Source: a virus
Virus record (IMG/VR): IMGVR_UViG_3300009034_000068
Span: 1 to 46,616 of that record
Length of the DNA stretch: 46,616 nt
Strand: one strand, 5' to 3'
The notes under the pieces were generated by a model. The model saw nothing but the letters and a program-made list of their open reading frames with translations. It was not told where the DNA came from and did no database searches. The position numbers were made by a program, and so were the translations under genes. Shown in pieces: positions 228 through 45,186 of the stretch; the stretch's first letter is position 1, and every line of letters begins with the position of its first letter.

Positions 228-488
228 TTATTCCATAAAAGCAAACAATAGTTGTTGATTTTTCTGTGGTAATATCTCAAGAGAATCCCATCCCGTCTGC
301 CACGTTGCTGGTACTGCTTGTGTGGAAAAATCAGATATATGCGTGGATTCTGGCAGAAGAATAAGTGGAAAACCAGCATAATACCCAACTATTTTACCTG
401 TCTTACCTTCATCCCCAGTGTCGCTATAACGACCTGTAAATTTAATCCTGGTTCCTATCGGGTATTTTTTATGCTTATCATCTTCCAT
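228..488 (-). CDS. SH3-like small protein with QLLF C-terminal peptide (paralogue 1)
   Basis: 86 residues. The N-terminal part (KYPIGTRIKF, then GKTGKIVGY) has the alternating hydrophobic/glycine pattern of a small SH3-like barrel, and a Trp-containing strand follows. The protein ends in KNQQLLFAFME. Five other window proteins share this architecture (765-1019, 1305-1550, 2462-2731, 2735-3010, 3586-3813). Only the two ends are conserved, which suggests a variable barrel with a fixed docking tail. QQLLF resembles the bacterial sliding-clamp binding motif (consensus QLxLF), but that role is inference. It overlaps the upstream gene by 11 bases and sits directly before the helicase gene. Confidence 0.8.
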   Translation of the reverse strand: MEDDKHKKYPIGTRIKFTGRYSDTGDEGKTGKIVGYYAGFPLILLPESTHISDFSTQAVPATWQTGWDSLEILPQKNQQLLFAFME

Positions 489-765
489 TTTCCTGCTCCA
501 TTACAATATCCCGTACTGATTTTCCTTTGGGTTTATGATTAGGTTTAACACGGTGTTGCTTATCTAAGTTATTCAAAACCCATCGCATGCAAACTGCTGG
601 CCAATAAGTTATTCCCTTCCATCCCCTGCTCTCAAAATAGAGATAACAACTTTGAGCCATGAAGTCTAATTGTGTGTTACTAAACTTATACCCTTTCTTT
701 TGACAGTAATCTTTCATTATTTCAAAGACTTCTGCATCGGATTGTGGTTTATTTATTTTAGCCAT
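478..765 (-). CDS. Hypothetical protein with DnaD/replication-O-like GW segment
   Basis: 95 residues, predicted mostly helical, with a basic tail (KPNHKPKGKS). The segment YFESRGWKGITYWPAVCMRW (about residues 43-62) resembles the Y-x-x-x-G-W...W-x-x-x-x-x-x-W pattern near the C-terminus of phage replication organisers of the DnaD/O type, which work with a DnaB helicase. The helicase gene is two genes downstream, which fits a helicase-loading or origin-binding role, but the resemblance is short. Stop and start overlap the neighbours on both sides. Confidence 0.6.
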   Translation of the reverse strand: MAKINKPQSDAEVFEIMKDYCQKKGYKFSNTQLDFMAQSCYLYFESRGWKGITYWPAVCMRWVLNNLDKQHRVKPNHKPKGKSVRDIVMEQENGR

Positions 766-1019
766 TATTCCATAAACGAAAATAAAAGTTGTACGTTTTT
801 TAATGGTTCTATTTCATTCCAACTACATTTCCATGTAAATTTAGTACCATCAGATAAAGTAGGATAAGAGTTCCTTTTTGTATGTTTATCTGCTGTGGGC
901 AGAAATATAATTGGACACCCATTGCTTCGTAACCCAACTATCTTTCCTGTTTTACCATTATCTTCACGTTTATACAAAAATCTAATTGGTGTGCCTATTG
1001 GATACTTTTTGGTTGCCAT
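765..1019 (-). CDS. SH3-like small protein with QLLF C-terminal peptide (paralogue 2)
   Basis: 84 residues, closest to paralogue 1: both share KYPIGT near the N-terminus, GKTGKIVG around residue 25 and a P-hydrophobic-hydrophobic-LP strand. The C-terminus is KNVQLLFSFME, so Val replaces the first Gln of the tail while QLLF is kept. Codons of the tail differ from those of the other copies, showing conservation at protein level. The stop overlaps the start of the next gene at base 765. Function unknown. Confidence 0.78.
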   Translation of the reverse strand: MATKKYPIGTPIRFLYKREDNGKTGKIVGLRSNGCPIIFLPTADKHTKRNSYPTLSDGTKFTWKCSWNEIEPLKNVQLLFSFME

Positions 1020-1028
1020 ACTTACCCT

Positions 1029-1289
1029 CTAAAACGGTACATTTTCATCACTTTTGGGCATTATAACATCCTTGACATAGAGATACTCAAGAACTTTGTT
1101 TATCCCAAGCTGTACTTTTACCAAGTCTGTTGGCTTGAAAGACTTTGTGCGTTTCCATGTATCACCATCCTTGTAAGATTTATCTATTGTTATTGATTGG
1201 AACACGCCTTTACCAGTATCATTACTCCATATTGCAATTTGAATACCACCTACTCGTACTGTGTGTTCTGGTTTACTTGAACTTGCCAT
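1029..1289 (-). CDS. Small ssDNA-binding-like protein with SSB-type acidic tail
   Basis: 86 residues. The body (VRVGGIQIAIW, then an FQSITIDKSYKDG hairpin) looks like a small beta-rich nucleic-acid-binding fold. The protein ends KSDENVPF, which closely matches the acidic-Pro-Phe tip of bacterial SSB (DDDIPF in E. coli), the peptide through which SSB recruits replication and repair partners. Its position among replication genes supports a role in coating single strands or recruiting partners. The tail is seen directly; the OB-like fold is inference from strand pattern only. Confidence 0.68.
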   Translation of the reverse strand: MASSSKPEHTVRVGGIQIAIWSNDTGKGVFQSITIDKSYKDGDTWKRTKSFKPTDLVKVQLGINKVLEYLYVKDVIMPKSDENVPF

Positions 1290-1304
1290 AATACTGCCCT
1301 TTCA

Positions 1305-1550
1305 TTAATACATAAATTCAAATAGTAACTGTTCATTCGGTTTACTTGCTAATTCTATCATATTTCCTTGCAACCACCAACAAAACTCATTTGGCTCTTT
1401 TTTACGTCTTGGCCTGCCCATATTTACAATATAGGTGGTGCGTCCACAAATATCTACGATAGTACCTATTTTATTTAATTCATAAGACTCTATCGTAGAA
1501 CACTTGATAATTCTAACATTATCTCCAATTTTGAACTTTTTATTGTTCAT
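1305..1550 (-). CDS. SH3-like small protein with QLLF C-terminal peptide (paralogue 3)
   Basis: 81 residues when started at the ATG at 1550. A GTG 13 codons upstream is in frame but adds a segment (QRFYAF...) that no paralogue has, so the shorter form is preferred. KFKIGDNVRI at the N-terminus and IGTIVDI mark the barrel, and a WW pair sits about residue 65. The end is NEQLLFEFMY. Function unknown; see the family description at 228-488. Confidence 0.75.
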   Translation of the reverse strand: MNNKKFKIGDNVRIIKCSTIESYELNKIGTIVDICGRTTYIVNMGRPRRKKEPNEFCWWLQGNMIELASKPNEQLLFEFMY

Positions 1551-1620
1551 AATATTATAATTCCAACAAAAGGCGTAAAAGCGTTGCACCTCTACGCCTT
1601 TGTTTACTTACCGTTGCCTC

Positions 1621-1992
1621 TTAGTCGATGTCAATGTACTCACGACCATTACCTTCGGGGTCGATGAACTTGTCCTTTTCGCAAGGTAAATCCTCTGTGT
1701 AGAGGCCGTCCTCGCTGTGGAAATCGCCCAAAACCTTTACGACTTTGCTACTGTTCCTTGCACGCCCAGTATCGGTGTTTACCAAGTACGCTCTTTTTAC
1801 ACCACCGACTCGTTGACGAATACTTACCAGTTGGTACTTAGTACCGTTTGCATGCTCAAGAGCCATCCCGATTGGGAATGTTCTTGTGGCACATGCTTCG
1901 ACTAAGGCTGCCAAAGCCTTCGCCACTCTTGGCTTAGAAGGGTCAATAGTAACCTTCTTGCCGTTTAATTTTACTGTCATTTTCTTTGCCAT
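1621..1992 (-). CDS. Hypothetical protein, 123 aa
   Basis: Basic N-terminal half (KKMTVKLNGKKVTI, then an Ala-rich helix AKALAALVEA) and an acidic C-terminal third ending DPEGNGREYIDID. The Ala-rich helix followed by a strand-rich centre (TKYQLVSIRQR) could fit a DNA-associated architectural protein, but no family is recognised. It starts 3 bases downstream of the stop of the 150-residue gene, so the two are probably co-translated. Base composition is less AT-biased than that of the neighbouring SH3-like genes. Confidence 0.75.
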   Translation of the reverse strand: MAKKMTVKLNGKKVTIDPSKPRVAKALAALVEACATRTFPIGMALEHANGTKYQLVSIRQRVGGVKRAYLVNTDTGRARNSSKVVKVLGDFHSEDGLYTEDLPCEKDKFIDPEGNGREYIDID

Positions 1993-1994
1993 TT

Positions 1995-2447
1995 TTACAT
2001 CTCCAAATTTTCTGTTAATGATTGAACAATTTTCTTTACACTCTCTGTTTTGGCGGGATACCTACCAAACGTACTAAGAATGTGAACAAGAATATCGTTA
2101 GGATTAGCACTTGCTTTGTGTGCCTTGTTATACTCATCAATAACTTGATTGAGTATCTTTACATTTGTGGCGTTTGGTATAGCAAGATTTAATCCTATTG
2201 CTAACTGTTCCCAATTCGGTTTGTGTTTGGTAGAGTCGGCTACACAACCGACAGAACCCCTTTTCGTAGCATCTCTACGTTCCGCATAGATATAATCTAT
2301 GTAATTCTCTGCTAATTCAGTAATCTTCTCCACATCATAGACATCCTCCAATGGTAATTTTTCAATCAACGATTTTGTTACTGCTAATTTACTTATCCGC
2401 AAATCTTTTTCTGCAAATGCTTTCACTTCTTTTTCCGTGTATGCCAC
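1995..2447 (-). CDS. Hypothetical helical protein, 150 aa
   Basis: Almost entirely helical by sequence: an amphipathic Lys/Glu N-terminus (TEKEVKAFAEKDLRISKLAVTK...), a central Asn/Tyr helix and a C-terminal KKIVQSLTENLEM. No catalytic motif, membrane segment or zinc site is visible. A linker around KRGSVGCVADSTKHK separates two helical halves. It belongs to the 3010-to-1 leftward unit. The family is not recognised. Confidence 0.75.
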   Translation of the reverse strand: MAYTEKEVKAFAEKDLRISKLAVTKSLIEKLPLEDVYDVEKITELAENYIDYIYAERRDATKRGSVGCVADSTKHKPNWEQLAIGLNLAIPNATNVKILNQVIDEYNKAHKASANPNDILVHILSTFGRYPAKTESVKKIVQSLTENLEM

Positions 2448-2461
2448 AACATTACCCCTTT

Positions 2462-2731
2462 CTATTTGTCCATAAACTCAAATAATAGTTGCTCATTTTT
2501 TACAAAAAATAACTCTATCATATCAGTACCTACTGACCATTTAGGTATATACCCTCTTGCCTTACAAACCTCTTTCATCTGAACCCAAATACCAAAACTT
2601 CTTGTCACATTACGGGATATAGAACTAATTTCCCCGACCTTACCAACTTCCTCAGATTCCACAGATACAGATGTTGCTAATGGGAGTATTTTTACTCTGT
2701 CGCCTACTTTGAATTTAACGTTATGTTTCAT
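2462..2731 (-). CDS. SH3-like small protein with QLLF C-terminal peptide (paralogue 4)
   Basis: 89 residues. Barrel markers are KFKVGDRVKI at residues 5-14 and VGKVGEISSI at about 28-37. A long central insertion with a Trp strand precedes MIEL, which paralogue 3 also has. The tail is KNEQLLFEFMDK, two residues longer than the others. It lies 3 bases downstream of paralogue 5, so the two form a tandem pair that probably arose by duplication. Confidence 0.78.
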   Translation of the reverse strand: MKHNVKFKVGDRVKILPLATSVSVESEEVGKVGEISSISRNVTRSFGIWVQMKEVCKARGYIPKWSVGTDMIELFFVKNEQLLFEFMDK

Positions 2732-2734
2732 AAC

Positions 2735-3010
2735 CTATAGCTCAAATAACATTAGTTGTTGCCCAATTAATGCTTGGAGGGCTTCAACAGGATACCAATA
2801 ATCACATTTTGTACTACTATACTTATTAAAAATCTGTGTGTGTAATTTGCAACCTATATATTTATCAATTTCAATTATTTTATAAATTTTGTTTATTGTT
2901 TGATTCATATCATCGACCCAATCCGTCCTCCTATCATAATATCTCCAAAAGCTAATTTTCTTAACAACTTTAACCTTTTGCCCAACCTTGAATTTCTCAT
3001 ACCATTTCAT
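2735..3010 (-). CDS. SH3-like small protein with QLMLF C-terminal motif (paralogue 5)
   Basis: 91 residues and the first gene of the leftward unit. KFKVGQKVKVV at residues 6-16 is the family N-terminus; the centre is Tyr/Lys rich. The end is IGQQLMLFEL, where QLMLF is an exact match to the bacterial clamp-binding consensus QLxLF, making this the clearest case in the family. The start has AGGGG about 9 bases upstream. It is preceded by the control region with the inverted repeat at 3042-3077 and the repeated element at 3198-3229. Confidence 0.78.
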   Translation of the reverse strand: MKWYEKFKVGQKVKVVKKISFWRYYDRRTDWVDDMNQTINKIYKIIEIDKYIGCKLHTQIFNKYSSTKCDYWYPVEALQALIGQQLMLFEL

Positions 3011-3041
3011 TATATAACCCCTGTATATAATATATTATACT

Positions 3042-3077
3042 TAGTACCTTATATAACTTTGTTTATATAGGTACTTA
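3042..3077. promoter_or_regulatory. Imperfect inverted repeat in the leader of the leftward operon
   Basis: Two arms of about 16 bases, TAGTACCTTATATAAC and its near-complement GTTTATATAGGTACTTA, are separated by three bases (TTT). It lies 32 bases before the first gene of the 3010-to-1 unit and overlaps several TATAAT-like strings, so an operator or a leader hairpin would both fit. No protein ligand can be assigned. Confidence 0.45.
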
Positions 3078-3106
3078 GGTATAAGTATTGTATACTAATG
3101 GGACGG

Positions 3107-3129
3107 GCAAAAGTAACCCACGCTTTTGC
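3107..3129 (-). promoter_or_regulatory. Leader hairpin
   Basis: Perfect 7-base stem GCAAAAG/CTTTTGC with a 9-base loop, between the repeated element (3198-3229) and the first leftward gene. There is no U-tract after it on the leftward strand, so it is not a classical terminator. It could shape or stabilise the leader transcript. Confidence 0.4.
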
Positions 3130-3197
3130 TTTGGAGTACCCAATTAACTACCTATTATCACGCCGCCGCCCCCATTTATTCATTTCTCAAAAAACAC

Positions 3198-3229
3198 ACC
3201 CCTCTATATATACCCCAGAATTGGGGGGG
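3198..3229 (-). promoter_or_regulatory. 30-base repeated control element, copy A (leftward orientation)
   Basis: Bases 3198-3227 match the reverse complement of 11877-11906 at 29 of 30 positions (only 3218 differs). Read leftward it runs CCCC-A-ATT-x-T-GGGG, then GTATATATAGAGGGG. Both copies point outward, toward the first genes of the two divergent operons, at similar distances (188 and 203 bases). This is direct sequence evidence of a shared regulatory site. A phage-specific promoter is the simplest reading, and a regulator-binding site is the alternative. Confidence 0.65.
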
Positions 3230-3318
3230 TTTTCACGCCCGATAAAAAATAATTCTGAAAATAATTTGAAATTTTATCACCTTTTCTCTAACGATTGTAT
3301 TGGTTGTAACGACTATAC

Positions 3319-3561
3319 CTAAAATATCTGTTTTATCTCTCCGCTGTCTGGTAGAACCGCTGCATTTTTTATAGCATCTTTATTTCGTTTGTAAGTTTCC
3401 CGCAAAGCCAAAGCATTATCAAATTCTCTGGGATGGTTTTTACTAAGCGACTTTATGCGTTCTCGTATGGTCGCTAATGATACTATTTGCTTTTTTGCTA
3501 TGGTCTGCAATGAATAATTTTGTGCAAATAGTATCAAGGTTTTTTCTTGTTTCTTAGTCAT
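3319..3561 (-). CDS. Small helix-turn-helix protein
   Basis: 80 residues. Residues 9-37 (LILFAQNYSLQTIAKKQ, then SLATIRERIKSL) have the helix-turn-helix pattern of sigma-region-4/LuxR-like DNA-binding domains, followed by a basic helix. It is the last gene of the leftward unit and faces the control region at 3011-3318, so it could regulate the repeated element or the inverted repeats near it. AAAGGA precedes the start by 8 bases. Confidence 0.65.
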   Translation of the reverse strand: MTKKQEKTLILFAQNYSLQTIAKKQIVSLATIRERIKSLSKNHPREFDNALALRETYKRNKDAIKNAAVLPDSGEIKQIF

Positions 3562-3585
3562 TGTAAGTCCTTTTGTGATATATAC

Positions 3586-3813
3586 TTATTTCATAAATTC
3601 AAACAGTAGTTGTTGGTTTTTGGCTAATTCCAAATCATAGCGATACATCGTGTACCGCTTATTTTCTGGAAAACGTACCCTTAAAAATCTACCATTGCTA
3701 TCAATTTCTATTATTGTTCCGACACACTTCAGGGTTTTAATTAGTTTGGGGGATGAAAGTTTTAATATTAAACTTTCTTTTACTTTTACTTTATTTCCTA
3801 TCCTAAATTTCAT
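3586..3813 (-). CDS. SH3-like small protein with QLLF C-terminal peptide (paralogue 6)
   Basis: 75 residues, the shortest and plainest family member: KFRIGNKVKVKE opens the barrel, VGTIIEIDSNGRFLRVRF forms its core strands and KNQQLLFEFMK closes it. It shows the minimal unit of the family. It is separated from the other five by the control region, so the family spans two transcription units. Confidence 0.78.
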   Translation of the reverse strand: MKFRIGNKVKVKESLILKLSSPKLIKTLKCVGTIIEIDSNGRFLRVRFPENKRYTMYRYDLELAKNQQLLFEFMK

Positions 3814-3873
3814 TTTATATACTCTCTTTAGTTAAATAGTTACTTAACAAGAAAAGGTTGCTGTTTTGTCCTA

Positions 3874-3894
3874 TAATATTGTATCATAATATTA
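3874..3894. promoter_or_regulatory. Perfect inverted repeat upstream of paralogue 6 and HTH gene
   Basis: TAATATT and AATATTA arms (7 bases each) with a 7-base spacer. The repeat sits in the 120-base gap between the peptidase gene and paralogue 6, with TACAAT-like strings overlapping it on the leftward strand. It is a candidate operator for the downstream pair that includes the helix-turn-helix gene. The AT richness makes chance occurrence fairly likely. Confidence 0.35.
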
Positions 3895-3933
3895 AATAAC
3901 GGCGGTTTGCGTATTAGATATTTACTTAACAAC

Positions 3934-5193
3934 CTAATTCTCTTTTACTTCGGTATCGCTTGGGAGAGCACAATCATCACACACCCTTACGCCGAACCTC
4001 TCTATGATTTTATGGTCTTTTGGTATTACCCTGTTACACACAAAACACTTTGCGGGTTCTTTGTCAAATACAAAGAATATTGCAGCACATTTATTGCAGT
4101 ACAATTCTCCGTTTACATATCTTAATGAATCACCTTTCTCCATTTCGTCCTTTTTTATCCCACATTCGTTACAAGCAAGAACCACGACATTGTTCTGTGA
4201 AGTTGCGGGGGGGTTAGTGGTGGCATATGATAACTTAACATCCCACTCTTCTTTAGTGTATTGTTCTTTTTTGCAAGGCCAACAAATTTTATCCCCATGT
4301 TTCCCGTCTTTATCGTTGCCTTTGATTGTGTACAACAAAGCATCTTTTTTCCATTTTTTACATTTACTACATTGACTGTTGTGTTTTGACTGATAGTTAG
4401 TAACATAGGAAACTTTTGTTATGGTCGGCTTGGGAGGTAATGAGGTGTATCTTTTGGGTTTCATGGTGTTTATTATTTCTTCTGTAAATTTCACACTGTG
4501 CCATAAATCTTTTATAGAGATATACTCATAATCAGTATGAGGATTGTAGTACCCACAGGATAAATTGATACAGGAAACCCCAACTTTATTATACCATAGT
4601 TTCATCACATCTGTGACAGTGCCAGTTTTATTTTTGTATTTGTATTTTTTCTTTGTAAATCCAACTTCGGAGGAAAACTCATGGGACACGGTCTTGTTAC
4701 CCCAATAAGTTTGTATAAAATCCTTGTTTCCCCTTCTATCTAATTGGATTAAATACCGACAATTAGCGAAAAATGTTTTATTCACCCCCATACTTCCTTT
4801 GCACCCGTTTTCTTCTCTTGAAAAGAATACAACTTTTATTTGGGGTATTGTTTTTAGTAAATACAGACATGCAAAGACACCACATTTGTCATCCCCACCG
4901 ATACCCACTCTCTGTTTGCCATTCATTGCAAACAGCACATCATCATTGTCTATATCTTTGTATACCTTAAAATTAGGTACGAAATCATGCACGGTGTCCA
5001 TGTGTGATACTACACAAGGATACATATTTGTTTTGCCTTTTATAACAAGGATATTTCCAACAGCGTCAATTTGATAATCTAACTTTAGCTTTCTAAGTTC
5101 TTTATCAAGATATAATACCATCAGCTTTTCGTTTTCGCTGTTCGTTTGTATTTTTAGCAAATTAATCAATTTATTGAACCAGTAGGTATCCAT
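3934..5193 (-). CDS. M20-type metallopeptidase fused to three C-terminal zinc ribbons
   Basis: 419 residues. Residues 1-245 form an M20-type (peptidase T/carboxypeptidase-like) core. The metal-site motifs are all present: SHMD (His64, Asp66), GIGGDD (Asp101), REENG (Glu127-Glu128), LD (Asp152) and NPHTD (His219). These are consistent with a two-metal hydrolase removing amino acids from peptides or hydrolysing a related amide. The C-terminal 150 residues carry CxxC pairs at 275/278 with 304/307, 341/344 with 366/369, and 383/386 with 405/408, which is three zinc ribbons. No signal peptide is seen, so it is probably cytoplasmic. The usual M20 dimerisation insert is reduced. GGGAGA precedes the start. 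The substrate is unknown. Confidence 0.82.
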   Translation of the reverse strand: MDTYWFNKLINLLKIQTNSENEKLMVLYLDKELRKLKLDYQIDAVGNILVIKGKTNMYPCVVSHMDTVHDFVPNFKVYKDIDNDDVLFAMNGKQRVGIGGDDKCGVFACLYLLKTIPQIKVVFFSREENGCKGSMGVNKTFFANCRYLIQLDRRGNKDFIQTYWGNKTVSHEFSSEVGFTKKKYKYKNKTGTVTDVMKLWYNKVGVSCINLSCGYYNPHTDYEYISIKDLWHSVKFTEEIINTMKPKRYTSLPPKPTITKVSYVTNYQSKHNSQCSKCKKWKKDALLYTIKGNDKDGKHGDKICWPCKKEQYTKEEWDVKLSYATTNPPATSQNNVVVLACNECGIKKDEMEKGDSLRYVNGELYCNKCAAIFFVFDKEPAKCFVCNRVIPKDHKIIERFGVRVCDDCALPSDTEVKEN

Positions 5194-5218
5194 AAAACTT
5201 CTCCCATAGTTGCCTATA

Positions 5219-5410
5219 TTAAGGAACTTTTCCTTGCACTAAAATACTATTATCTTTTAGTGGGCATTTTTTCTTAGATAGCCCATAGCAATCGGCATTT
5301 AGAAAAGCACACATACTATCACTGCCTGCTGTGTATTCGCTCATCTGATAAACTTCGGTGTAGTGAAATGGGCACTCAAAGTTAAATTCCACCATTTTTA
5401 CTTTTGTCAT
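5219..5410 (-). CDS. Small cysteine-rich protein
   Basis: 63 residues with six cysteines (FECPFHY near residue 13, MCAFLNADCYGL in the middle, KKCPLKD), spaced like a small zinc- or iron-binding knuckle rather than a simple CxxC ribbon. It lies between the peptidase and the 527-residue gene with gaps of 25 and 11 bases. GAGGA precedes the start by 7 bases. Function unknown. Confidence 0.7.
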   Translation of the reverse strand: MTKVKMVEFNFECPFHYTEVYQMSEYTAGSDSMCAFLNADCYGLSKKKCPLKDNSILVQGKVP

Positions 5411-5421
5411 TTTAGCATCCT

Positions 5422-7005
5422 CTACGTAAATAATAATAGTTGATTTTTATTTGGTGGTTTAAATGTCTGTTCTGTGTCTGGTAGTGTAACCGTTTGCTCC
5501 TCAGACAGCTTAAATGTTTTTCTTATATAATATTTATTATTAAACTTTTTCATGTATTTTTTGTTTTCAGCCGAGTTTACTATCAATTCATTAGTGATGA
5601 GTTGAACAAGGTTATCTTTGCTTACACAATACACCTCTTGGTACTCGATAATGTTTAATCCTGAATTATAAGCAAGGTCATACGCTATTATCGCATGTTC
5701 TTTGGGCACCAAGTTACCTTTCCTTGTTACCGAAGCATAAAGCACCCAAGTTTCAGGCAGATTTGGGTAAAAGAATATTGGTTGCTTTTCTAATTCTTTA
5801 CTGTATTCTTTCCTATCATAATTTATGAAACACTGCGAAATGTGATGCCATTTGTCATTAAAACAAACAATATCAGTATCTTTTTTATGGTACATCTCAT
5901 CCTTGATATTTACAATATTGGATTTGTGTATATACCCTTCATATTTATCGGAGTGTACGGCCTTATTTTTGTCTATTTTTTCACCAGTGAGTGCTTCGGT
6001 TGTAGAATTTACTTTAAGTATATACCCATCAAGTTTTGTTTTCATTACTTTATTGTCATAACAACTATAATAATCACCGTCTATATCTGCAATATTTGTT
6101 TTCAGAACATACCCATTATATCTTTTTACTTTTATAGCATCTTTTTTAGATATGTAATTGCCACTAAGGGCTTCCCTTACTCTATTGGGGTCGAGGTTTG
6201 GATAATATCCACTATTTGTATGTTGGTTTAAGGTTATGAAGTCGCTGTGTTTTATTATATCCGTGCAAATATCGGAAGTGAGGAGGTTATCTTTAGGGTA
6301 TAAATACCTAAATGTATCCATAAATGGCAAGAAACACATATTCGCTATATTTACGTTTTTTATATAATAATTCTTGTTCATGCAATTAACGGTAGTTGTC
6401 GGATACCGCTTCCACCTATTTTCCTTCGCCAAATCATAGAACAATGGCAAAAGAGCATCTGACCTTGCATATACTCTATCTAAATAAGTAAATGGGTTTT
6501 TAAGTTTTGTACTTTTAATATTATCCCATAATAATGCCCTTGCGTGTATTTTGTTTTTGTTATCTACGACCACAACAATTCTTACGTTATTTTTAACGTA
6601 AAGATTTAAGGCTTTTTGCATTTCTTTAAGACGCATACAGCTTTTTCCCAAGTTGCCTGTATCTGAAGCGTAGTAATTGGTGTGAAGGTAAGCATATCTT
6701 ATTTTGCTTGATGGCAGTATTTCTATTTTCAAGTTTAATTTATCTGTTTCTCTGGAACGTATGAAGTCTATAATCTTTCTGGGAGTAAGGCTTGCTGAAA
6801 TTTTATAGTATATGAAAGTAGACAAGCTGCTTTTACGGAAAATAGGGTTTATATCATACATATCCCAATATCCAACACTGAAAGAATTATTAGAATAATG
6901 AGTTATTGTGGCTTCTCTTGTTCTTGAATCGATTTTATAACGGCTTTTGTATTTTTTATTGTACTCTTTTAATATCTCAGCAAAACTGTATTTTTTGTTA
7001 GCCAT
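5422..7005 (-). CDS. 527-aa phage protein of unknown function ending in a clamp-like QLLLF motif
   Basis: Residues about 105-195 carry a recognisable conserved block: GKSCMRL, then RIVVVVDNKNKIHARALLW, then YLDRVYARSD. I associate this with a widespread but uncharacterised phage protein type. The C-terminal half contains repeated YxGYVLK/YEGYIHK-type strands (near residues 294, 326 and 354), suggesting short beta repeats. The last residues NKNQLLLFT match the sliding-clamp consensus QLxLF exactly and echo the SH3-like family tails. The start has GGGGAT upstream, and the structured RNA at 7041-7231 lies in or just before its leader. Confidence 0.75.
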   Translation of the reverse strand: MANKKYSFAEILKEYNKKYKSRYKIDSRTREATITHYSNNSFSVGYWDMYDINPIFRKSSLSTFIYYKISASLTPRKIIDFIRSRETDKLNLKIEILPSSKIRYAYLHTNYYASDTGNLGKSCMRLKEMQKALNLYVKNNVRIVVVVDNKNKIHARALLWDNIKSTKLKNPFTYLDRVYARSDALLPLFYDLAKENRWKRYPTTTVNCMNKNYYIKNVNIANMCFLPFMDTFRYLYPKDNLLTSDICTDIIKHSDFITLNQHTNSGYYPNLDPNRVREALSGNYISKKDAIKVKRYNGYVLKTNIADIDGDYYSCYDNKVMKTKLDGYILKVNSTTEALTGEKIDKNKAVHSDKYEGYIHKSNIVNIKDEMYHKKDTDIVCFNDKWHHISQCFINYDRKEYSKELEKQPIFFYPNLPETWVLYASVTRKGNLVPKEHAIIAYDLAYNSGLNIIEYQEVYCVSKDNLVQLITNELIVNSAENKKYMKKFNNKYYIRKTFKLSEEQTVTLPDTEQTFKPPNKNQLLLFT

Positions 7006-39386: not shown

Positions 39387-39496
39387 AGAATGCAAATTAA
39401 TCATTTATATTTTTCTTCGGAACTTTCTATTAATGCCCCTACAACTATAAACCCTATTATTACTGCTATTATACCAGATATTATCATTTGCATTCT
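39387..39496. repeat. Inverted repeat flanking a 28-residue gene
   Basis: AGAATGCAAAT at 39387-39397 and its perfect reverse complement ATTTGCATTCT at 39486-39496, 11 bases each, 88 bases apart. The right arm overlaps the end of the polymerase gene. They could pair in the transcript and isolate the small gene, or be traces of an insertion. Confidence 0.45.
39401..39487 (-). CDS. 28-residue membrane peptide
   Basis: MIISGIIAVIIGFIVVGALI then ESSEEKYK: one long membrane segment with an acidic end. The ATG at 39487 overlaps the polymerase stop (ATGA); an ATG two codons upstream is also in frame. Likely co-translated with the polymerase. Function unknown. Confidence 0.5.
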   Translation of the reverse strand: MIISGIIAVIIGFIVVGALIESSEEKYK

Positions 39497-41013
39497 CCGT
39501 ACCTTGTACTGTAATTTATATCTATATCCCACTTCAAAAATATAGGTAATGCTTTAATCATACACTCGTTGATATATTTCACACCCTCTTCCACATATTC
39601 CTTCTTGCACTCAACAACAATCTCATCGTGGACAATATTTATTAGCATCAAATTAGGATTTAACACAATCAATGCAGCGGCCACCTTGACAACATCAGCA
39701 CCATAAGACTGAATCTTGAAATTGAAAGCCTGCCGATAGCATCTTTCCTTACCCCATTTGTTTAATTTGTGAAAGTCAGGGAATCTTCTTTTACGCCCCG
39801 ACATATTCCTGACAAACCCATGCTTGTACACTTGCTCCCGTGTTTTCTCAATGGCACGTCTAAGTCCTGGGTATTGGGCAAAGAATTTGTCAATAAACGC
39901 TTGTGCCTCCTTCTCACTACAACCAAAGTCCTTAGAGAATCCATAAGCTGTTTTACCATAAACCGTTCCAAATACCACTGACTTGCAATCAGTACGTTGT
40001 TTGTGGTACTTCTCTTTTGCAATCTTATGTTCGAGAGTCTTATCAGTTAAGCCAAGAGCAGATATATTTAATCCATCTATTTCGTTAGCCGTAGCTAAAT
40101 GAATATCATAACCTTTTCGTAGTTTACTTTTTAGGTTAGTGTCACCGCTCTCCTGAGCCATTATCCTTACTTCTTGGCTAACGTAATCAGCCACGATAAA
40201 CACATCATCATCGTCAGCCACAAACAAATTACGAATGTTCGCAATGTCGTTTTGCTTAGGCAACTGCTCAATATTAGGGGAAGAACAACTAAGACGGCCA
40301 GTGACACACACAGTATTATGAAAGCTACAGCGAATACGTCCATCATCATCTATAAACCTTTCAAAAGGAATTAAAAAACCATTAAGTAATTTCTCCACCT
40401 TGCCAAGTTTAATCAACAAATCTATCGCAGGATGCTTACCTTTCAATCTTTTCTTACTTTGTTTGTTCCAAGACTTCTTTTTCTCCTTCTTGCTTCTCTC
40501 ATATATAGGAAATCCCAATCCTTCTATCAGGGGAACTACCTGGTCTGAACTATTAAAATTTATACTTGGTTTGCAGGATGTCACTCGACTTCTTGGAGTG
40601 ACACTAACAATATACTTACCACCAAATATGTTCAACAACTCATTCTCTATCTCATAAAATAAATGCTGCGTATCATAAGTCATTTGCTTGGCAGCACTTA
40701 CATCACCTTTTATTCCGTTAATAACAAGGTGCATCAATGCTCTTTGAAAAGGAAATTCAATATCATAAGCTAAGTGGTGGAGTCCTTGTTTTTCTATTTG
40801 GGGCGACTGTAATCTATATAAATCATACGTATTAATTGCATCTTCTGTTGCGTACTTAGCAAACTTTGGACTATCTGTACCATATTTTATAGCATCTTTA
40901 TACTCTGTCACTTCCCTATGTAATTGAGTATGGGTTAGATATTTAAGTCCGTTCTCAAGTAGATTCTCATTAAGCAAGTGACTTGCTGTTAGGGTATCAA
41001 AAATGCGTGGCAT
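39484..41013 (-). CDS. DNA polymerase I (family A), C-terminal piece of a split gene
   Basis: 509 residues. It starts inside the 3'-5' exonuclease domain (PRIFDTLTASHLL, then exo III YATED with Tyr54 and Asp58) and continues through a complete polymerase domain. Motif A is VADYVSQE (Asp276), the O-helix RTDCKSVVFGTVYG has Arg340, Lys344, Phe348 and Tyr352, and motif C is VHDEI (His462, Asp463). Exo motifs I and II lie in a separate ORF at 41921. Phe348 corresponds to Taq Phe667, a state usual in virulent phages. It replicates phage DNA with the helicase. Confidence 0.88.
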   Translation of the reverse strand: MPRIFDTLTASHLLNENLLENGLKYLTHTQLHREVTEYKDAIKYGTDSPKFAKYATEDAINTYDLYRLQSPQIEKQGLHHLAYDIEFPFQRALMHLVINGIKGDVSAAKQMTYDTQHLFYEIENELLNIFGGKYIVSVTPRSRVTSCKPSINFNSSDQVVPLIEGLGFPIYERSKKEKKKSWNKQSKKRLKGKHPAIDLLIKLGKVEKLLNGFLIPFERFIDDDGRIRCSFHNTVCVTGRLSCSSPNIEQLPKQNDIANIRNLFVADDDDVFIVADYVSQEVRIMAQESGDTNLKSKLRKGYDIHLATANEIDGLNISALGLTDKTLEHKIAKEKYHKQRTDCKSVVFGTVYGKTAYGFSKDFGCSEKEAQAFIDKFFAQYPGLRRAIEKTREQVYKHGFVRNMSGRKRRFPDFHKLNKWGKERCYRQAFNFKIQSYGADVVKVAAALIVLNPNLMLINIVHDEIVVECKKEYVEEGVKYINECMIKALPIFLKWDIDINYSTRYGECK

Positions 41014-41303: not shown

Positions 41304-41924
41304 TCATCCCCATTGCTCTGCCATTGCGTCTGCTATGCCTTGGAATGTTATGCTTCTCAACTTCCATCTATCCTTAGAGGGACTCATTGCATCTACAAAA
41401 TATAATGGCCGACCTGATTTACATACATAGACAGGTTTTTCAGGTTCTACTTCATTCGTAGGTTGTAACAACGGTAAATTCTTTAACCATAGACAAGTTC
41501 TTTTTCTTTCGGGATGTCCAAACTGAAACGGATTTATAGTTTGGTCAGGCTTTCTAAAGTGAGTATTTACATATCCAACAGGATTCTCAACACATATTTT
41601 TTCAGTAGGGGCATTGTAGAGTTGCATAAAAAACTCAAATGCTTCTTCTGTCTTTTGTTGTCTGCCTTTTATCTTTTTATTCCAATGTAATCCTGCAACA
41701 CTTAAATAGGTACAAGGGGGATGTGCTATAATCAAATCCCACCCCCAATTAAGTATATCTAATACATTACCATGAACATGCAAGCGTTCCCCCCATTTTG
41801 GGTGAGGTACATTAGATTCTGTTCCTTCATCTTCAAGCAAATCACAACTTGTAGTATTATGGCCTTTCTTAGCAAAAGCATCACGTACTCTACCACTAAA
41901 CTCACAAGCTACTAATACTTTCAT
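41304..41924 (-). CDS. C5-cytosine methyltransferase-like protein inside the split polymerase
   Basis: 206 residues. VLVACEFSGRVRDAF (residues 3-17) is a SAM-binding-like start, and AHPPCTYLSVAG carries a PPC signature like motif IV of C5 methyltransferases. VENPVGY resembles motif VI, and KRTCLWLKNLPLL is a block common in the phage type of this family. The target-recognition region is small, so specificity or activity is uncertain. It overlaps the exonuclease piece as ATGA. It may modify phage DNA against host restriction. Confidence 0.72.
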   Translation of the reverse strand: MKVLVACEFSGRVRDAFAKKGHNTTSCDLLEDEGTESNVPHPKWGERLHVHGNVLDILNWGWDLIIAHPPCTYLSVAGLHWNKKIKGRQQKTEEAFEFFMQLYNAPTEKICVENPVGYVNTHFRKPDQTINPFQFGHPERKRTCLWLKNLPLLQPTNEVEPEKPVYVCKSGRPLYFVDAMSPSKDRWKLRSITFQGIADAMAEQWG

Positions 41925-42211
41925 GTTTCTATCCCTTCCTTTCTAAGTACCATCATATCAAAACTTGCATTATGAAACACCACCATCTTAGCCTCTGATA
42001 AATAATAATCAAGAATCATCAATAAATCTTTCTTGTATCTTCTCTTGATGTCCACATAACACGCTTGAGAACCATCACAAATACTGAATCCGATAATCTC
42101 AAGGTCTAACCAATTAAGAGAGGTTGTTTCTGTATCAAGTGAGAAGATGTCCTTACAGTGACTCATCCAATGCTTAAATTCATCAGCAGTTTTTATGATT
42201 GTCTTTTCCAT
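41921..42211 (-). CDS. DNA polymerase I exonuclease N-terminal piece (split gene)
   Basis: 96 residues. SLDTETTSLNW is exo I (Asp26, Glu28) and VVFHNASFDMMVL is exo II (Asn81, Asp85) of the DEDD proofreading domain. It ends at GIET exactly where an intact family A polymerase would go on to the IFDT segment that opens the 39484-41013 protein. The 0.9 kb between them holds two unrelated genes. Working together with the large piece would be needed for proofreading. Confidence 0.82.
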   Translation of the reverse strand: MEKTIIKTADEFKHWMSHCKDIFSLDTETTSLNWLDLEIIGFSICDGSQACYVDIKRRYKKDLLMILDYYLSEAKMVVFHNASFDMMVLRKEGIET

Positions 42212-44341: not shown

Positions 44342-45031
44342 TTAAATTGAACTTTTGAGTATTCTGCAATACGGCAGTAAAGCATCATAATTCTTCTTCA
44401 AGTCAATAACATCCTTTTCACAATGGTCTACCACTTCCGCCACAGCAACCTCATTACCCATCATAGCCTGCCGCCAAGCAGGATGAGAAATTCTGGTCTT
44501 AATCGTCTTGCCCTGCAGGGATTCAGCTACCACATCCTGCCTATTAGAATGCAGGCATAATTTTGTTTTCGCCATTCGCCAAACATCGGTATGATAAAGC
44601 TCACCGTGCTTGGGGAAGTCCAAACCGTGTATGATAGCCCTGCTTCTCAAGAATGGGATGTCAAAATATGTACTATAGTGTCCCACCACCCTATCAAAAG
44701 ATTGCATAGTATCAATACATGTGCTGATTACTCTGCTATCCTCATTACCAGACAGCACGTCCTTCTTGGTCAACCAATCCTCATACAACGTACCATCATC
44801 CGCAAGGATACACCAGCATAGCACTATCCCGAAGTTGGCTTTAAGATTGCTTGTCTCAATGTCTAACCAACCAACCTTCTCCTTGATACCGTAATCTTTT
44901 ATAAAACAATTAAAATGACGGACATAATTATGACGGTGTGTACACTTATGCGTCAATAACCAATGAAGTTGTTGTGAATTAGCCCGCCTAACATTAACTA
45001 AACCTCTCATAATTTTAGGTAGTTTATTCAT
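44342..45031 (-). CDS. DEDD-type 3'-5' exonuclease
   Basis: 229 residues. WLDIETSNL (exo I, Asp and Glu), VVGHYSTYFDIPFL (exo II) and VVDHCEKDVIDL (exo III, with His and the final Asp) match the RNase H-like DnaQ/YprB-type exonuclease fold. A basic N-terminus (KLPKIMRGLVNVRR) precedes it. The start with AAGGAA 6 bases upstream is preferred; an ATG 5 codons upstream overlaps the previous stop. It may assist replication or recombination along with the split polymerase. Confidence 0.78.
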   Translation of the reverse strand: MNKLPKIMRGLVNVRRANSQQLHWLLTHKCTHRHNYVRHFNCFIKDYGIKEKVGWLDIETSNLKANFGIVLCWCILADDGTLYEDWLTKKDVLSGNEDSRVISTCIDTMQSFDRVVGHYSTYFDIPFLRSRAIIHGLDFPKHGELYHTDVWRMAKTKLCLHSNRQDVVAESLQGKTIKTRISHPAWRQAMMGNEVAVAEVVDHCEKDVIDLKKNYDALLPYCRILKSSI

Positions 45032-45045
45032 ACTATTCCTTTCCA

Positions 45046-45186
45046 TTATATATCGTTTGCCCGTTCTTGGTAACAGCTATCACATAAATAACATTCTTGT
45101 ATTTCATCATATATTTCTTCTGCATAAGGACATGTTGTTAGCTTTACATCTTCTTTTTGTTTTTCGCAATCATCACATGTATACAT
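45046..45186 (-). CDS. Zinc mini-protein, 46 aa
   Basis: MYTCDDCEKQKEDVKLTTCP (CxxC at 4-7) and QECYLCDSCYQE (CxxCxxC near the end) in a strongly acidic chain. It overlaps the exonuclease start context. GGAGG precedes its ATG. It resembles tiny phage proteins that bind host enzymes, but no function can be assigned. Confidence 0.58.
   Translation of the reverse strand: MYTCDDCEKQKEDVKLTTCPYAEEIYDEIQECYLCDSCYQERANDI

Follow-up and report, generated by a model that had tools for sequence, protein, structure and literature searches.

Diversified SH3-like proteins of a phage lineage end in a peptide resembling the clamp-binding motif of Bacteroidota Pol IV

Hexameric clamp-binding motifs (CBMs) of bacteria include the C-terminus of Pol III alpha (QVELEF), the RQLVLGL sequence of Pol IV and the motif of Hda (PMC11139829). 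The published consensus has a pentameric form, Q-phi-x-[LM]-[FL], and a hexameric form, Q-phi-x-[LM]-x-[FL], whose position 3 matters little (PMC11139829). Here we describe a similar peptide at the C-termini of seven proteins encoded near the left end of a viral genome, IMG/VR record IMGVR_UViG_3300009034_000068 (46,617 bases; positions 1–46,616 are the stretch analysed here, called the window, or G000 in counts across records). Like the hexameric CBM, the tails have an invariant Gln at position 1, an aliphatic residue at position 2, an unconstrained position 3 and hydrophobic residues at positions 4 and 6, and they lie on a terminus predicted to be flexible. Unlike it, they have Phe instead of Leu or Met at position 4, a conserved Met at position 7, and one to six trailing residues, and each genome has about six to twelve paralogues with the tail, plus one unrelated protein. 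Judging from sequence, we consider it probable that the tails are CBMs of a Bacteroidota type that dock a diversified set of early proteins of the phage on the sliding clamp of its host.

All seven genes lie on the minus strand, and in each the peptide occupies the very C-terminus before the stop codon, as stated in an initial annotation of this DNA. Six open reading frames (ORFs) of 75–94 residues encode SH3-like paralogues, at positions 228–488 (86 residues, tail KNQQLLFAFME), 765–1019 (84 residues, KNVQLLFSFME), 1305–1550 (81 residues, NEQLLFEFMY), 2462–2731 (89 residues, KNEQLLFEFMDK), 2735–3010 (91 residues, IGQQLMLFEL) and 3586–3813 (75 residues, KNQQLLFEFMK). The seventh, at 5422–7005, encodes a protein of 527 residues with a fold unrelated to the barrels and the tail NQLLLFT. 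Two of the tails, QLMLF and QLLLF, are exact pentameric QLxLF motifs, again in line with the annotation. For the third paralogue the ORF reaches 1589 with a GTG codon, and translation probably begins at the ATG at 1550.

Relatives were collected by DNA-pattern scans of viral contigs, two based on the tail and a third on KFKVGDKVK, the start of the barrel. The scans yielded six records with a common gene cluster: IMGVR 3300022538_000217 (G001), 3300022538_000248 (G002), 3300022540_000325 (G003), 3300005253_000289 (G004), 3300022542_000566 (G005), whose tailed genes duplicate those of G003, and the more distant 3300005820_000004 (G006), of which 3300008516_000904 is a near-copy fragment. The window, G001–G004 and G006 form a non-redundant set of six records. 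A profile of barrels only, made by stripping the tails from 50 paralogues, was then searched against all ORFs of the seven records. At E < 1e-6 it matched 55 non-redundant paralogues, and all 55 carry the tail, with the proviso that the training set was chosen by tails and the profile may miss a paralogue that lacks the tail if its barrel is very different. The window contributes six of them, G001 twelve, G002 ten, and G003, G004 and G006 nine each; five lie outside the training set, and the position-3 variants QLTF and QLQF are new among these. None of the 392 other proteins in the six records has a clamp-like end.

Together with six orthologues of the large protein, the barrel proteins provide 61 tails for comparison, 54 of the form Q-x-x-F-x-F and seven of the form Q-x-x-L-[FLW]. 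The 54 have Q-L-x-F-x-F-M as their main form, and the alternates are QLMLFEL (three), QLLLF, QLLLL, QSLLF and QLLLW. Among the 54, Q1, F4 and F6 are invariant and L2 is present in 51; position 3 accepts L, Q, T, V, M or A, as would be expected of a hexameric clamp motif. Met7, found in 51, is almost as fixed as the core residues. One to six residues, variable in length and charge, follow F6, and the residue preceding the invariant Gln is likewise free (Q, E, K, R, G, V or I). Pairwise identity averages 0.75 over the tail but 0.22 over the barrel, codons differ among the copies, and the 54 tails of seven codons are encoded by 50 distinct 21-mers; the peptide is therefore what is kept, as the initial annotation had argued from codon variation. 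A DNA pattern for QLLFxFM gave 37 matches in G000–G005, all on the gene strand, and the reversed pattern gave none. Among 1673 control ORFs from unrelated viral loci, the last 13 residues contain the pentameric motif in six and a broadly defined hexameric motif in three. A chance origin was rejected on the grounds of the reversed-pattern result and the rarity of such ends in unrelated ORFs. A tail-pattern scan of 84,980 genomes returned 21 matches and no convincing gene end with the tail; the exact form is therefore not common as an end of host or prophage proteins.

Measured against the published motif, all 61 tails have Gln1, 58 have Leu or Ile at position 2, and 60 have Phe or Leu at position 5 or 6, the exception being QLLLW. 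For comparison we turned to Pol IV, which is known to bind the clamp and has its motif at the C-terminus. Of 29 Pol IV genes from Bacteroidota, 27 encode a clamp-type motif near the end; some of the 29 products end in QLRFEF, QLEFSF or QLEFEF, and two additional genomes have QLKFAF and QLKFDF. The QLxFxF forms come from loci L203, L212, L223, L286 and L306, the first three of which exceed the cut-off of the Pol IV equivalog NF002677 (NCBIfam). Ends of this type were found in one of 30 Bacillota Pol IVs (QMKFPF) and in none of 29 from Pseudomonadota. The phage tails thus share with Bacteroidota Pol IV the exact Q-L-x-F-x-F form at the extreme C-terminus; they differ in that Pol IV, which belongs to the host and has a folded polymerase domain, ends at F6 and has no Met7. 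By this comparison Phe at position 4 is natural in Bacteroidota, and the phage tails share that form.

A second comparison is with PcfK-like proteins (PF14058), which we first met as two chance matches and of which one plasmid copy is annotated as AcrIIA9 family. Copies are found at L006:8010–8357, L081:3119–3493, L173:1141–1956 and L175:1495–1905, and at the additional loci L176, L177, L178, L186, L188, L189, L192 and L193. Their ends include QLTLF, QMSLF, QPSLFDF, APTLFDF, ALTLFDL, QFSLFEGL and QLFFDFMEEK, and QQTLFDFM occurs internally. Across these sequences the family is seen to swap the canonical clamp motif for LFDF-type forms. Like the phage barrels, they are small mobile-element proteins with QLTLF/QMSLF, LFDF or QLFFDFM ends; unlike them, they have an unrelated N-terminal domain, and no multi-copy array was seen. 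A close-relative search with the L006 protein produced nothing new. As a separate matter, a clamp role for this family, which is widespread on mobile elements, seems worth testing. Two of its sequences, QQTLFDFM and QPSLFDF, prompted us to consider a register shifted by one, in which the tails would be read as pentameric [Q/E]QLLF. We disfavour this register: the residue before Gln is free, QLTF and QLQF lose the Leu, and the Pol IV tails (QLRFEF and the like) fit the unshifted register. The comparisons with Pol IV and the PcfK-like family are the main support for a clamp motif, and the view of the initial annotation that the tail is a clamp-type docking peptide is supported by sequence, in that the tail is kept in the lineage and Bacteroidota Pol IV has the same QLxFxF form.

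Several observations weigh against this interpretation. Work in E. coli admits solely Leu or Met at position 4, with Phe there reported to give weaker inhibition (PMC11139829), and by that E. coli-based definition 54 of the 61 tails, which have Phe at position 4, fall outside the strict consensus, the other seven having Leu. Met7 lies outside the consensus and is without counterpart in known clamp motifs. Beyond the lineage, the tail is missing from 64 of the 66 short proteins with KFKVGDKVK found on viral contigs, and a distant homologue of the 527-residue protein in Cellulophaga phages, alignable in its middle part only, has an acidic end without it. Conservation in homologues, proposed in the initial annotation as a check, holds within the lineage (55 of 55 barrels and six of six 527-residue orthologues). 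Outside it, proteins of either fold that are distantly related or unrelated lack the tail, which is therefore a lineage-specific add-on, and most phages do without it. As to position 4, the E. coli-based rule may be too narrow for Bacteroidota, because Pol IV there also has Phe4.

The barrel at 1305–1550 was chosen for a structure model. AlphaFold2, run with a 54-sequence alignment, predicts a five-stranded SH3-like beta-barrel with a mean predicted local distance difference test (pLDDT) score of 81, mostly 84–90 within the barrel, whereas the last 14 residues score about 52–62 and have no predicted secondary structure. The model resembles SH3, KOW (NusG, Spt5) and PsaE-type folds, with a best Z of 8.5 and a root-mean-square deviation of 1.7 over 55 residues. 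YorP of B. subtilis (2HEQ) and the NusG KOW domain have the same barrel fold and a similar size, a likeness of fold only and middling at Z about 8. Sequence matches to Pfam SH3 models are all under the cut-off, among them that of the 3586–3813 product to SH3_15 (E 3e-4, under the gathering cut-off). The predicted models of both the barrel and the 527-residue protein place the motif on a flexible segment.

The 527-residue protein has five orthologues, 44–58% identical by tblastn. The family ends in NQLLLFT (window), NQLLLLEDKK, KQLAFDFGGIK, KQLLFEFMEK, KQLQFSFMGK and NQSLLFDAKGQ; one protein therefore alternates between the pentameric (L4 F5) and hexameric (F4 x F6) forms. Its model is poor (mean pLDDT 60.7), with the tail in a stretch below 50. 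A GNAT-like function was considered and not assigned, the PDB matches being weak (best E 1e-2) and the model of low confidence; its BFVD matches are mostly uncharacterised phage proteins. A close-relative search with this protein alone yielded nothing new. Its nearest annotated relatives are in Cellulophaga phages, and the peptidase encoded beside it is also close to theirs. In the window, positions 3934–7005 hold an M20/M28-like peptidase gene and the 527-residue gene, a pair common to the Cellulophaga phages phi38:1 and Calle, where the distant homologue likewise adjoins a similar peptidase gene. A tRNA-Glu gene (L028:7934–8008) adjoins the 527-residue gene in G004, an ORF for a 291-residue GluRS-like protein (L144:12945–13820) lies within the array of G006, and in Cellulophaga phages tRNA-Glu is found near the same peptidase/527-family pair. 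A link between the 527-residue protein and glutamate tRNA is possible.

The host is probably a member of the Bacteroidota, given the bacterial-type GluRS in G006, the Cellulophaga-phage relatives and the Bacteroidota-type motif. Shine-Dalgarno-like motifs precede 41–45% of genes (about 44% in the window), a frequency that looks high for a Bacteroidota phage. As to the partner of the tails, a search for DnaN (PF00712) found none encoded in the six records, while the positive control was detected. The phage family-A DNA polymerase (PF00476), at 39484–41013 on the minus strand, has a clamp motif neither at its C-terminus nor internally, and polymerase, helicase and primase are all without the tail. 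Because no phage DnaN was found, and in view of the untailed replication enzymes, the host clamp is the likeliest partner.

On this reading the tails would be hexameric motifs, Q1-L2-x3-Phi4-x5-F6 with Phe4, and in a few cases pentameric QLxLF, held on flexible C-terminal ends. They would dock the diversified early SH3/KOW-like proteins and the one large protein in the peptide pocket of the host DnaN beta-clamp. Two outcomes can be envisaged. By blocking, about six to twelve ligands could fill both pockets of each clamp and displace Pol III, Pol IV and repair proteins, and the phage family-A polymerase, having no motif, would continue replication without a clamp. By recruitment, clamps loaded on phage DNA could serve as a landing platform for clients of the variable barrels. 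To either we would give an even chance at best; recruitment is slightly favoured, speculatively, as diverging barrels with a fixed tail fit many clients and one dock. The proposal as a whole is that a small SH3/KOW-like protein has been expanded into some six to twelve fast-diverging members, all of which bind the host clamp by an invariant Bacteroidota-type motif, share it as a plug or landing pad for action at the replication ring, and either block host replication or steer clamp traffic to phage DNA. It seems to us evenly balanced.

Other explanations were weighed against docking on the clamp. The tails might instead dock to a phage-encoded hub specific to the lineage, for example a conserved small operon protein, with the likeness to clamp motifs arising by convergence on a simple hydrophobic peptide. 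Confinement of the tail to the lineage would fit such a hub, as would the conserved small genes between the tailed genes in every record read and the degree to which Met7 and Phe4 are fixed, which exceeds that in known clamp motifs. Yet five Bacteroidota Pol IVs have the identical QLxFxF form, and exact pentameric motifs (QLMLF, QLLLF) in the phage set are unexpected for a private hub, so that we regard this explanation as unlikely. A structural role within the barrel, with the tail retained for folding as the final strand or as a dimer contact, would account for its constant place at the barrel's end and for its being the most conserved stretch. This is very unlikely, however: the barrel is complete before the tail, which is predicted to be unstructured, the same tail ends the unrelated fold of the 527-residue protein, and short proteins of other viruses with the KFKVGDKVK start do without it.

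Ends of the type LFxF[ML] also resemble the PIP (PCNA-interacting protein) peptides of archaeal RFC large subunits, from which the tail might be read as a PIP-box for a PCNA-type clamp in an archaeal host. Instead of a small hydrophobic residue at +3 and aromatics at +6 and +7, however, the tails have aromatics at +3 and +5 from the invariant Gln; counted from this Gln, the aromatic pair comes one residue too early for QxxhxxFF, and six tails have Thr or Gln where position 4 would fall. The lineage moreover encodes a bacterial-type GluRS, and its nearest annotated relatives infect Cellulophaga. We rejected this reading for its spacing and for the Thr or Gln at the would-be position 4, and rate it even less probable than a structural role. 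Short hydrophobic C-terminal peptides can serve as protease or sorting tags, and the tail could accordingly be a C-terminal degron, a localisation tag or another sorting signal. Of the alternatives this is the least probable, since the one to six variable residues after F6 imply that the free C-terminus is not read, and Gln1 is invariant.

To our knowledge, few phage proteins act on the host sliding clamp. Gp168 of phage Twort is a known phage clamp inhibitor that, as described in PMC11139829 (citing NAR 2021, gkab875), acts by blocking the DNA channel rather than through the peptide pocket. The proteins described here would resemble Gp168 as phage products acting on the host clamp; by the description in the same source, Gp168 fills the channel, whereas the tails would address the peptide pocket. 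Searches of the open-access literature turned up no account of phage paralogues arrayed with clamp tails. Motifs of this class are known, and an array of clamp-docking barrels in a phage appears to be new. If the proposal is right, the phage treats the clamp as a programmable platform or targets it with many ligands, and a function is gained for a class of small SH3-like proteins of phages now labelled 'hypothetical'. The accepted motif with Leu or Met at position 4 is indicated to be too narrow by the Phe4 of Bacteroidota Pol IV and of these phages, and a wider motif would be relevant to finding clamp ligands and to clamp-directed inhibitors.

The tailed genes lie among replication genes. At the left end of the window, the minus strand from position 1 to about 224 encodes the N-terminus of a DnaB-like helicase, with the Walker A sequence GRPGMGKSS, which the end of the record truncates; its family follows from a homologue in L144 (PF03796, E 2e-68; phrog_19). 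The tailed gene at 228–488 is directly upstream of this truncated gene, a few bases apart, and two related records have additional tailed genes interspersed among their helicase and primase genes. Given this arrangement and the cut helicase gene, the array in the window is probably incomplete. Elsewhere in the window, the family-A polymerase looks split into an exonuclease-like piece (41921–42211), the polymerase domain (39484–41013) and a separate exonuclease subunit (44342–45046), with a DNA methyltransferase gene (41304–41924) between the first two. Within the replication cluster, positions 1029–1289 encode a protein of 86 residues for which Pfam and PHROG gave no match. It ends in DENVPF, and its homologues in NDGIPF and GDTPF; the DENVPF end is reminiscent of the C-terminal tip of SSB.

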